From: an uncultured Acidimicrobiales bacterium
GTDB taxonomy: Bacteria > Actinomycetota > Acidimicrobiia > Acidimicrobiales > SHLQ01
Direction of reading: 5' to 3'
DNA length: 37,154 nucleotides
Assembly (NCBI GenBank): GCA_938002955.1
Contig: CALLAA010000253.1
Location: 1 to 37,154, forward strand
Position 1 is the first letter of the stretch, and each line of letters opens with the position of its first letter. Positions 14,048-27,816 of the stretch are shown one piece after another. Under the pieces are notes generated by a model. That model saw nothing but the letters and a program-made list of their open reading frames with translations, had not been told where the DNA came from and did not search any database. A program made the position numbers and the translations under genes.

Positions 14048-14278
14048 ATGGATATTCGGATCGGTGTGACCTACACCCCCAAAGAAATCGCACTGGAACT
14101 CGCTGAGGGAACCAAGGCTGACTCGGTAAAGGGCGACATCGACGCTGCACTCTCTGGCGAGAGCAGCGTCTTGTGGCTCGAAGATCGTAAGGGTCGACAG
14201 GTCGGCGTTCCTGCCGACAAGATTGCCTACATCGAGATCGGCAGCGAGGATTCGAACCGCCCAATCGGCTTCGGCTGA
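14048..14278 (+). CDS. DUF3107 family protein
   Basis: A 76-residue acidic protein of the actinobacterial DUF3107 family. The pattern DIRIGVTYTPKEIALEL, then LWLEDRKGRQVGVPADKIAY and a terminal IGFG matches what I know of this family, whose function is not established. GAAGGA at 14037–14042 lies 5 nt before the ATG. It follows mrp by 26 bp and precedes the ArsA-like gene by 22 bp, so the three probably share a transcript. The conserved VPADKIAYIEIG segment suggests a beta-rich small fold; nothing catalytic is visible. Confidence 0.88.
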   Translation: MDIRIGVTYTPKEIALELAEGTKADSVKGDIDAALSGESSVLWLEDRKGRQVGVPADKIAYIEIGSEDSNRPIGFG

Positions 14279-14300
14279 GTCTGTCGATGATGGCCGACCG

Positions 14301-15215
14301 ATGACCATCCTCGACCGTCGCCTTCTCATCGTTGGGGGCAAGGGCGGTACTGGGAAGTCATCGGTCGCGGCCGCGCTCGCTGAGCTCTCCGCGTTTCGTG
14401 GCGGTCGGACCCTGCTCATCTCCGCCGATGGCAGCCCTGGCGCTGCTGGGATGTTTGGCGTCACGCCGGAGCACGAGGCCGTTGAAGCGCAACGCAATCT
14501 CAGCGTTCTTCAAATCGAGTCGAAGGCATCGCTGCGTGAGTTTGTTGGTCTGCAGCTCGGGCCGCTCGGTGCGATTGGCAAACCAGTAGCGAACGCGTTC
14601 TCGTTCGTGGCTGAAGCTGCGCCTGGAGTGTCGGAGCTCTTGCTCGTTGGCAAATACGCCCACGAGGCGCGCAGTGGCGACTGGGATCTCGTCGTGGTCG
14701 ACGCGGCCTCGAGCGGGCATCTGCTCGGCGAGCTTGCAGCGCCGCAAAATGTTGGCGAGATTGCGCCCGTTGGTCGTCTCGCTCGCGAGACCGGATGGGT
14801 GGTGGCTCTGCTCGCCGATCCGGAGATAACGGGAGTCGTGAACGTCACGCTCGCCGAGGAAGTCCCCGTGTCGGAAACCATCGACTTCGTCGATCGCCTC
14901 CACACGGAGACGCCAGCACGCCTCGCTGCCGTCGTCGTGAATCGGACCCGTCCGCAGTTGTACGCGCGGGCTAGACGTGCCGAGCTGGCCGAACTGTTGG
15001 CCGATCGGCCGACCCGCCTGTCCAAGGGCGCTTCTGGACTCTTCGACGCAGTGGAGATTGGTCTGGAGCGTGCCGACGTCGCATCGGCGATCGATGCTCG
15101 CTTGCGTCGCGAGCTTCCCGATGAGATGCCGGTGTTGCACGTGCCCGAGTTCGGCGACGTCGCCGATACCCGAGCCTCTGTTCGAGAAGCAATCGCCGAC
15201 GAGATGTCGCTGTAA
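14301..15215 (+). CDS. ArsA/Get3-like P-loop ATPase, first of a pair
   Basis: A 304-residue ATPase of the ArsA/Get3/MinD class. The deviant Walker A reads GGKGGTGKSS (about residues 12–21) and keeps the signature lysine; the switch region has ISADGSPGAAG, and DLVVVDAASSGHLL is the Walker B region. The frame runs upstream to 14223, but MTILDRRLLIVGGKGG is the family start. It resembles the first subunit of the paired actinobacterial ATPases known in Mycobacterium tuberculosis as Rv3679/Rv3680. Its last codons (Glu-Met-Ser-Leu-stop) form the first unit of the 17-bp tandem repeat that links it to the second ATPase gene. Confidence 0.9.
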   Translation: MTILDRRLLIVGGKGGTGKSSVAAALAELSAFRGGRTLLISADGSPGAAGMFGVTPEHEAVEAQRNLSVLQIESKASLREFVGLQLGPLGAIGKPVANAFSFVAEAAPGVSELLLVGKYAHEARSGDWDLVVVDAASSGHLLGELAAPQNVGEIAPVGRLARETGWVVALLADPEITGVVNVTLAEEVPVSETIDFVDRLHTETPARLAAVVVNRTRPQLYARARRAELAELLADRPTRLSKGASGLFDAVEIGLERADVASAIDARLRRELPDEMPVLHVPEFGDVADTRASVREAIADEMSL

Positions 15216-15285
15216 TGGAGATGTCACGGTAATGGAGATGTCACTGTAATGGAGATGTCACTGTAATGGAGATGTCGTTGTAATG
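15201..15285 (+). repeat. Five tandem 17-bp units, each with an overlapping stop/start TAATG
   Basis: Units at 15201–15217, 15218–15234, 15235–15251, 15252–15268 and 15269–15285 share the pattern GAGATGTCNNNGTAATG (unit 5 reads TCGTTG before TAATG). The first encodes the end and stop of the upstream ATPase; the last ATG (15283–15285) starts the downstream ATPase. Between them lie four complete 5-codon mini-ORFs, Met-Glu-Met-Ser-Arg/Leu-stop, starting at 15215, 15232, 15249 and 15266, each sharing one base with the next start. Each unit also supplies GGAG 11 nt before the next ATG. Adding or removing units does not change the downstream frame. Confidence 0.95.
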
Positions 15286-16416
15286 GCCGCTCGCTCACGC
15301 TCGTTGACCGCTGGCCTCGGCGAGACGGTCTCGGGACGGTCCCTGCTCGTTATTGCTGGTAGCGGTGGGGTCGGGAAGACCACCGTGTCTGCGTCGTTGG
15401 GGTTAGCGGCCGCGCAACAGCTCGATGGCGACGTCCTCGTGCTCACGATCGACCCGGCGCGCCGGCTCGCCGCAGCGCTTGGTATCGACATCGAAGGGAA
15501 CGACGCAGTCAACGTCCCGATCCCCGGCCAACGGACGTCGAACCTGTACGCCGCGATGCTCGACCCCGGGCCAGCGTGGGACGCCATGATCCAGACCGAA
15601 GCAACCCCGGAGATCGCCGAACGAATCCTTCGCAACTCGGTGTACCGGCGGATCGCGGACACGTTCGTGCACGGCAACGACTACGCGGCGCTCGGATGGC
15701 TCGATGCAGCGATCGAATCCGAGCGCTATCGGTTGATCATCGTCGACACCCCGCCGTCGCAGAACGCGCTCGACTTCTTTGACGCTCCGGCCCGAGTGAG
15801 CGAGTTCTTCGGCAGTTCGCTGTTGGGATGGTTGACCGGCGGCGATGGCACGCTCGTGGGCGGCGCTGCCGCCAAGACGTTCGCTTCGCTAGCCGACAAG
15901 CTCCTCGGTGCGGAGTTCTTCGCCGACGTAGTCGAGTTCTTCCAACTGATGAGCGGCGTCGTGCCCGGTATGGTCGAGCGGACAACAGCGGTGGCCAACG
16001 ATCTCGCTGGGGACGATGCGGCCTTCTTTGCAGTGACCGCACCGTCTACCGACGTTGTGGAGAAGCTCGACCGTCTCGCCACGTCGCTCGAGTCGCGTGA
16101 TCTGACGTTCGACGGGGTCGTCGTCAACGGCGTGGAACCCGACGTGTTCTGGGACCCCAAGGTCTATGACGTAGCGACACGAGTCGTCGAGAACACGAAG
16201 AGTCCGCTGACGGTGTCCGCAACTGCACTTCTCGCTCCTGGGGCGGAGTACGTCGTCGAACGGTGCGAGGTCGCCAACGCTCAGCGGGCCGTACTCGCCG
16301 CGCTCCCAGCGTCGGTCATCTCGACTATTCCGCGGCTGGTGCATTCGCCGACCGATGTCGACGGGCTGCTGGCCCTCGGGCAGATCTTGTGGCACGGAAC
16401 GGTCGACGAGCAATAG
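15283..16416 (+). CDS. ArsA/Get3-like P-loop ATPase, second of a pair
   Basis: A 377-residue ATPase with Walker A GSGGVGKTT (about residues 26–34), switch I LTIDPARRLAAALGI, and LIIVDTPPSQNALDFFD as Walker B and switch II. The signature lysine of the deviant Walker A (GKGGxGK) is replaced by serine here, while the partner keeps it. In ArsA/Get3 dimers that lysine reaches across to the other subunit's ATP (family knowledge), so an asymmetric heterodimer is plausible. The start is the last ATG of the 17-bp repeat array; no other start fits the N-terminus. No arsenic-binding Cys triad is visible, so arsenite transport is unlikely. Membrane-protein targeting or envelope stress roles are possible by analogy only. 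Confidence 0.9.
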   Translation: MAARSRSLTAGLGETVSGRSLLVIAGSGGVGKTTVSASLGLAAAQQLDGDVLVLTIDPARRLAAALGIDIEGNDAVNVPIPGQRTSNLYAAMLDPGPAWDAMIQTEATPEIAERILRNSVYRRIADTFVHGNDYAALGWLDAAIESERYRLIIVDTPPSQNALDFFDAPARVSEFFGSSLLGWLTGGDGTLVGGAAAKTFASLADKLLGAEFFADVVEFFQLMSGVVPGMVERTTAVANDLAGDDAAFFAVTAPSTDVVEKLDRLATSLESRDLTFDGVVVNGVEPDVFWDPKVYDVATRVVENTKSPLTVSATALLAPGAEYVVERCEVANAQRAVLAALPASVISTIPRLVHSPTDVDGLLALGQILWHGTVDEQ

Positions 16417-26817: not shown

Positions 26818-27816
26818 GTGAATTCACCGAAGGTAAACGAACGTTGGCGGGTCGCACTCGCCGGACTCGTTGCGGCCTTAGCGATCCCGTTCCTCATCAT
26901 CGATTCCCCAGCGCCAGCTGAGGGCGTCGAGACCAACGGCCAGGACGCTGCCTCGACCGAAGCCGACGAAGAGGCTTCTCAAGACCCTGTCGAAGAACCC
27001 GCGGCCGAGGACGTTGCCGCCGACGATACCGAAGTCGCCCTCGGTGCGGTCGAGGTCGTCATCGTCGACGATCTGGTTAGCCCGGACATCTCGCGACTTG
27101 CCGATCACGCTGGCACATGGGGCGCGGCTCGCAGTCAGGCCATCGCCGATGGCCGTGTCGAAGCCAGTTCAGTGCCGCCACCGTCGAACACGAACTTGGC
27201 CCTTTTGCCGAAGCTCCCACGTCTTCCGGAGCCGGAGGCGCCTGCTGAGGAGCCGTCCGAGGAGCCAGTTGATCCGGAGGCGCCTGCTGAGGAGCCCTCC
27301 GAGGAGCCAGTTGACCCGGAGGCGCCTGCTGAGGAGCCCTCCGAGGAGCCAGTTGATCCGGAGGCGCCTGCTGAGGAGCCCTCCGAGGAGCCAGTTGACC
27401 CGGAGGCGCCTGCTGAGGAGCCTTCCGAGGAGCCTGTCGATCCCGAGACGCCGGTCGAAGAGCCGACCGAACCTCCGGTCGTCGAGCCAGAAACGCCATC
27501 GGCACCACCGGTACCAGCCCAGGTCAACGGACGTGTTCCTGTGCCAGCAGGTGGCCCAACCGCTGCGCAGTGGGATGCCGTTCGCAAGTGCGAATCCACG
27601 CACAACTACCGAGCGATTAGCCCATCGGGTCTGTACCGGGGTGCGTACCAGTTCTCGCAGCAGACTTGGGACTGGGTTGCGGGCATCCACCAGCCACATC
27701 TCGTCGGCATCGACCCAATCGATGCAGAGCCTGCATGGCAGGACATCATGGCCTACACCCTCTACGCAATGCGTGGATGGGACCAGTGGCCAATCTGTGG
27801 CAAGAACTTGCTGTAA
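26818..27816 (+). CDS. Rpf-type transglycosylase-like protein with acidic Pro/Glu repeats
   Basis: A 332-residue exported protein. An N-terminal membrane helix (RVALAGLVAALAIPFLIID) is followed by an acidic linker, five perfect 14-residue repeats PEAPAEEPSEEPVD, and a C-terminal resuscitation-promoting-factor domain: WDAVRKCESTHNYRAI, with the catalytic Glu after the first Cys, then GAYQFSQQTWDWV and a second Cys in WPICGKN. Rpf domains cleave peptidoglycan and promote regrowth from dormancy. It occupies the rpfB position (between tatD and rsmA) but lacks the DUF348 and G5 domains of mycobacterial RpfB; the Pro/Glu repeat takes their place as a spacer. The GTG at 26818 has a good Shine-Dalgarno sequence; an ATG at 26794 is the alternative. 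Confidence 0.93.
   Translation: MNSPKVNERWRVALAGLVAALAIPFLIIDSPAPAEGVETNGQDAASTEADEEASQDPVEEPAAEDVAADDTEVALGAVEVVIVDDLVSPDISRLADHAGTWGAARSQAIADGRVEASSVPPPSNTNLALLPKLPRLPEPEAPAEEPSEEPVDPEAPAEEPSEEPVDPEAPAEEPSEEPVDPEAPAEEPSEEPVDPEAPAEEPSEEPVDPETPVEEPTEPPVVEPETPSAPPVPAQVNGRVPVPAGGPTAAQWDAVRKCESTHNYRAISPSGLYRGAYQFSQQTWDWVAGIHQPHLVGIDPIDAEPAWQDIMAYTLYAMRGWDQWPICGKNLL
27232..27480 (+). repeat. 42-bp in-frame tandem repeat in the Rpf gene
   Basis: Five 42-bp units start at 27232, 27274, 27316, 27358 and 27400, then a diverged unit to 27480. The final Asp codon alternates GAT, GAC, GAT, GAC over the first four units, which suggests that an 84-bp dimer was duplicated. Each unit encodes PEAPAEEPSEEPVD. 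Copy-number change would lengthen or shorten the surface spacer without breaking the frame. Confidence 0.95.

Follow-up and report, generated by a model that had tools for sequence, protein, structure and literature searches.

Very short ORFs, or minigenes, usually occur singly and have been studied for peptidyl-tRNA drop-off. Mycobacterial interspersed repetitive units (MIRUs) were reportedly first described by Supply et al. in 1997, in a two-component operon; they are dispersed and longer than 17 bp, and tandem copies, with lengths of 77 bp and 53 bp (each 2 mod 3), occur in senX3-regX3. The available part of PMC12548453 describes MIRUs as short mycobacterial repeats whose small ORF and the following gene are coupled through overlapping stop and start codons, an arrangement thought to limit harm to expression, and as apparently mobile units that insert at start codons with a -4 spacing. 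Among overlapping gene pairs, the -1 overlap is the commonest class after -4 (PMC10666635, in excerpt). Tandem repeats are also found in the M. tuberculosis dop and lpdA promoters, where their number is thought to alter expression (PMC12817950, in excerpt). Such repeats act on promoters, whereas the array described here lies at an intercistronic junction and would affect translation. Among the matches listed in searches of the open-access literature on tandem repeats with coupling or reinitiation, no such chains were described besides MIRUs, and no chains derived from a junction itself.

The window analysed here (37,154 nt, the whole stretch of DNA) corresponds to contig C253 in the draft genome (3.93 Mb, 270 contigs, 89.5% complete) of an uncultured Acidimicrobiales bacterium. 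The array joins two genes for ATPases of the ArsA/Get3 type. The products of gene 1 and gene 2 both match Pfam ArsA_ATPase (1.1e-20 and 2.4e-20), in agreement with the paralogous ATPase pair proposed from the sequence alone. Their top PDB matches are two chains of a single entry, 6bs3_A (Rv3679; 2.2e-21) for gene 1 and 6bs3_B (“Anion transporter”; 1.5e-43) for gene 2, the latter chain being presumably Rv3680. The top-ranked NCBIfam families were BagA for gene 1 (7.2e-32) and BagB for gene 2 (4.5e-58). Since both scores are below the equivalog cut-offs (111 vs 400 bits and 197 vs 521 bits), the proteins are called BagA-like and BagB-like only. A Mrp/NUBPL-type ATPase gene and a DUF3107 gene lie 5′ of gene 1, and a PdtaS-type histidine kinase gene lies 3′ of gene 2. 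Overlapping gene pairs often code for heteromeric complexes, according to the available part of PMC10666635.

A tandem array of five 17-bp units, each closing with TAATG, occupies 15201-15285 on the plus strand (Table 1). Four frames of 18 nt and five codons, neighbours overlapping by one base, lead from the stop of gene 1 to the fifth ATG, which opens gene 2 at 15283. The sequence-only reading had described these five units and four frames, and its coordinates agree with ours. It had also called the units exact repeats, which they are not: 14 of 17 positions are common to all, and the adjacent positions 9-11 read GCT, ACG, ACT, ACT and GTT in units 1 to 5, giving 0-3 pairwise mismatches. Three substitutions are inferred among the units, and all of them spare TAATG and GAG, an outcome expected by chance in 15% of cases; they carry no information on selection. 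The pattern TAATG-N12-TAATG occurs four times in the window and was absent from 100 dinucleotide-preserving shuffles, a comparison that excludes a chance origin of the array.

Table 1 Features of the gene junction (positions in the window).
Feature	Position	Strand	Sequence or product	Remark
Gene 1	14301..15215	+	ArsA/Get3-type ATPase, BagA-like, 304 aa	Ends EMSL-stop within unit 1; start predicted
Unit 1	15201..15217	+	GAGATGTCGCTGTAATG	Contains gene 1 stop (15213-15215) and first ATG
Unit 2	15218..15234	+	GAGATGTCACGGTAATG	
Unit 3	15235..15251	+	GAGATGTCACTGTAATG	
Unit 4	15252..15268	+	GAGATGTCACTGTAATG	
Unit 5	15269..15285	+	GAGATGTCGTTGTAATG	ATG is the gene 2 start
Mini-ORF 1	15215..15232	+	MEMSR-stop	
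Mini-ORF 2	15232..15249	+	MEMSL-stop	
Mini-ORF 3	15249..15266	+	MEMSL-stop	
Mini-ORF 4	15266..15283	+	MEMSL-stop	
Gene 2	15283..16416	+	ArsA/Get3-type ATPase, BagB-like, 377 aa	

At the sequence level the array resembles MIRUs in that its ORFs overlap their neighbours by TAATG at every unit. It differs from them in its 17-bp unit, its single location, its -1 rather than -4 spacing and its derivation from a local junction. In its own genome (89.5% complete) a 301-bp DNA query across the array matched one place, so that dispersed copies were not found, and a search for TAATG in three copies separated by 3-27 nt returned this array as the sole match. There was also no sign of mobile insertion at a start codon, because unit 1 equals the local coding junction of the nearest relative (locus L003, described below), which points to local duplication. 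With the unit at one place and matching a local junction, assignment to the MIRU family fails, although the working principle is shared. Coupled short ORFs in repeats are not new, MIRUs being the precedent, and the earlier statement that no element of this form had been described was too strong, since there are MIRUs (PMC12548453, in excerpt) and further chains that link genes. The chain consists of -1 overlaps throughout, as known from coupling by termination-reinitiation at TAATG/NTGA junctions, but the array has five successive steps through 5-codon frames where the usual pair has one. Minigenes may likewise have five codons, whereas the frames of the array form an overlapping chain.

Direct repeats can serve as binding sites generally, and the array could be a protein-binding, promoter or RNA-structure element that lies at the junction by coincidence. 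We regard this as very improbable: the array lacks inverted repeats, searches for promoters (simple sigma-70 consensus) and terminators found 0 matches in 14200-15500, and shuffled sequences fold equally well (z 0.10). In addition, the register of the units matches the stop and start codons exactly, and unit 1 equals the coding junction in L003.

The gene 2 product was searched against 98 genomes, its own included. It matched in 93 of them, and the best 29 relative loci, each from a different genome, were read. Eight are same-genus orthologs, from ten other genomes of the genus, the remaining two genomes having distant matches only (best E of 3.5e-31 and of 1.1e-33). All eight have an overlapping junction in single copy, seven being NTGA (-4) and one TAATG (-1); these orthologs and every step of the chain thus show the stop/start overlap, or spacing of about -8 to +10, that is taken as the mark of termination-reinitiation. 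More widely, an upstream frame of 80 codons or more was present in 28 of the 29 loci; in 26 of these 28 pairs the start lay at -8 to +10 from the stop, a count biased towards overlap by a script that chose the start nearest the stop. A tandem-repeat scan from 200 nt before to 60 nt after the expected start found an array in none of the 29 relatives; over the 30 junctions scanned one was present solely in that of the window. The sequence-only reading had named two things that together would speak against a tuning role, single-copy junctions in all relatives and no effect of copy number on expression; the first of these is what the 29 relatives read show.

In L003, which is 95% identical in amino acids, there is exactly one unit, GAGATGTCGCTGTAATG, with the same sequence as unit 1 here, within the single-copy junction GACGAGATGTCGCTGTAATGGC. 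Unit number therefore differs between species, being five in the window vs one in L003. Gap-free alignments of the flanks of the two loci extend over 1486 and 2193 nt, with 84-86% identity and a dS of roughly 1.0-1.2; between the aligned blocks the loci differ by the array and by the presence of two codons where gene 2 begins. Since dS in the flanks is near 1 but the units differ at only 0-3 of 17 positions, the array is much younger than the split from L003. No long microhomology able to start a 17-bp duplication was evident by eye in L003. To judge from these comparisons, the junction overlap is old and predates the array, and the repeats are young; absence from the relatives together with their overlapping junctions indicates that an old coupled junction was expanded in this lineage specifically. 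An assembly artefact might be suspected in a single draft assembly of 270 contigs and 89.5% completeness. However, the units carry distinct variants, an 85-bp array should be shorter than the usual read length, and the flanks are collinear with L003, and we consider an artefact the least probable explanation of all.

The reading we favour, with a probability of roughly two in three, is that the array is a recent and mostly tolerated slippage duplication of a coupled junction, and that any effect on the ratio of BagA to BagB would be quantitative. A single TAATG junction probably already coupled translation of the BagA-like and BagB-like proteins, and tandem duplication would have raised it to five copies in this lineage. 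Each new 17-bp copy would again provide a -1 stop/start overlap in the correct frame, so that a ribosome could pass all four 5-codon frames by hopping and arrive at gene 2 all the same; copy number could drift without damage to the frame. We infer that ribosomes do reinitiate through the chain and that the array is nearly neutral.

The frame computation bears on this scheme. A 2 mod 3 period, in which every ATG is read as far as the TAA of the following unit, leaves the last ATG reachable whatever the copy number; at 1 mod 3 it is reachable at alternate copy numbers only, and at 0 mod 3 the units become fused to gene 2. Because 17 is 2 mod 3, each added unit rebuilds the -1 overlap, and no copy number need break the coupling; the earlier claim that the frame of gene 2 does not depend on copy number thus agrees with the arithmetic. 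Reinitiation is reported to require short overlaps (PMC10666635, in excerpt). On this basis a 68-bp insertion without a rebuilt overlap should break coupling, whereas the array rebuilds it.

Passage through the chain should nevertheless have a price. In a toy model of five hops, 0.9 per hop leaves 0.59 and 0.97 per hop leaves 0.86. Four mini-ORFs should therefore be costly unless the hops are nearly lossless, which argues against full neutrality for a stoichiometric pair. Under the slippage reading the loss at each hop may be offset by a better Shine-Dalgarno match ahead of each start: duplication replaces CGAG by GGAG 11 nt before the next ATG, and the duplex energy, computed with an assumed anti-SD tail sequence, changes from -3.0 to -6.4 kcal/mol. 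Each hop probably loses ribosomes, and with the stronger GGAG set against this loss the net effect could have either sign. The same sites raise the possibility that ribosomes are recruited directly to the repeated GGAG/ATG sites, which would increase gene 2 expression with hopping playing a minor part. Four GGAG sites, each 11 nt 5′ of an ATG, and a duplex energy better than that of the single-copy junction are consistent with this idea. However, 11 nt is a long spacing between GGAG and ATG, and most recruited ribosomes would first translate a mini-ORF; direct recruitment therefore seems quite improbable.

Similar chains exist elsewhere. Genome contigs scanned for TAATG repeated four times at a spacing of 17 bp yielded at least 119 stretches with at least 125 arrays. 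Gene-linking examples include five mini-ORFs between frames of 497 and 502 codons (L045/L228), three between a 463-codon open frame and 236 codons (L136/L227, whose product we take to be SDR-like), three between 225 and 95 codons (L128), and five between at least 308 and 131 codons (L143). In a Clostridiales locus (L073), a 512-codon frame is followed by seven 5-codon frames and one 9-codon frame and then by a PPK1-like start, whose 14-nt overlap with the last frame lies beyond the usual range. We assume that this pair is PPX and PPK1. Among 30 other genomes searched for the ppx-ppk1-like locus, 17 matched and 14 were read; none of the 14 has an array, and their junctions include a TGATG overlap (L213 and L214), a GTGA overlap (L215) and, in several others, a short gap. 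One viral chain joins frames of 930 and 196 codons: the array is present in L207/L208, while L209/L210, at 73-74% identity, carry a single TAATG without any array; another relative, at 28% identity, is not comparable. With arrays present in one lineage and missing in the relatives read, the virus and ppx-ppk1 show the same history over again.

Enrichment of TAATG arrays at gene junctions is not claimed, because the counts fall within the range of permuted flanks. Among the arrays listed, a loose rule found gene-linking chains in 5 of 94 usable arrays vs 4.4 with permuted flanks (reached by 130 and 140 of 300 permutations). A strict rule, with 80 codons on both sides, gave 5 of 96 vs 1.9 and 2.3 (21 and 32 of 500 permutations), a count that favours enrichment because the flanks of the known chains L045 and L136 were lengthened by choice; without these two lengthened flanks, it gave 3 of 94 vs 1.5 and 1.8 (91 and 130 of 500). 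Short flanks or N removed 29 of the 125 listed arrays from the 96-array count and 31 of 125 from both 94-array counts. Over six length settings of the 96-array count, the observed value was reached by 57-125 of 500 permutations at upstream limits of 60 codons and by 21-40 at the others; over four settings of the strict 94-array count, it was reached by 91-283 of 500. On viral contigs, the loose rule found chains in 8 of 78 arrays of period 14, 17 or 20, two of the eight (L187 and L195) being from the same virus, vs 0 of 12 of period 16 (Fisher’s exact test, one-sided: P = 0.30), a comparison that lacks statistical power. Among the matches listed, 127 of 135 arrays of period 18 lie within coding frames and none forms a chain, and 17 arrays of TGATG at period 17 included no chain.

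The chains bear on the proposal of a selected rheostat, in which unit number would set the ratio of gene 2 to gene 1 through successive termination-reinitiation and slippage would supply heritable variants. The frame is safe at any copy number, chains are found in further genomes as well as on a viral contig, and each new start gains the stronger GGAG. However, the eight same-genus orthologs do without the array and gene-linking chains do not exceed permuted flanks in the unselected sample, and we think a selected rheostat unlikely. We consider it unlikely, too, that such chains form a recurrent class, in which slippage at coupled junctions yields evolvable rheostats, as 2 mod 3 chains whose unit number sets a protein ratio. 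If unit number does change output, slippage would give bacteria and phages a frame-safe means of adjusting the ratio of operon partners, and the arrays would be a natural set of constructs for measuring consecutive events of ribosome termination and restart. Even as neutral debris, the array would show which junction duplications are tolerated and would offer a natural five-step substrate for reinitiation.

Other TAATG repeats were observed in passing. Viral contigs L404, L406, L422, L233 and L261 carry 14- or 20-bp TAATG arrays that form chains of 4- or 6-codon mini-ORFs between frames. A 16-bp array (1 mod 3, three copies) at 1501-1537 of L158 derives from the start of a gene for a presumably MutM/Fpg-like protein with the N terminus MPELPEVETIRR; the upstream frame stops 56 nt earlier, which leaves no coupling to be affected. 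An identical 20-bp TAATG array, in three copies on the minus strand, is shared by L162 and L164 (1501-1545 in both), from two genomes of one genus, with partly similar downstream and different upstream flanks. Contigs L061, L069, L082 and L100 (Prevotellaceae, Proteiniphilum) carry similar repeats of the TAATGTG type, 8-9 and 17 bp long, which are perhaps a dispersed intergenic family.

The window itself contains a further tandem repeat at 27232-27452, with a 42-bp unit in 5.3 copies (94% match). It lies within a frame of 340 aa that has a transglycosylase-like domain at its C terminus and whose product we assume to be Rpf-like, and this frame is overlapped by a 543-aa frame with an RrnaAD methyltransferase in its second half.
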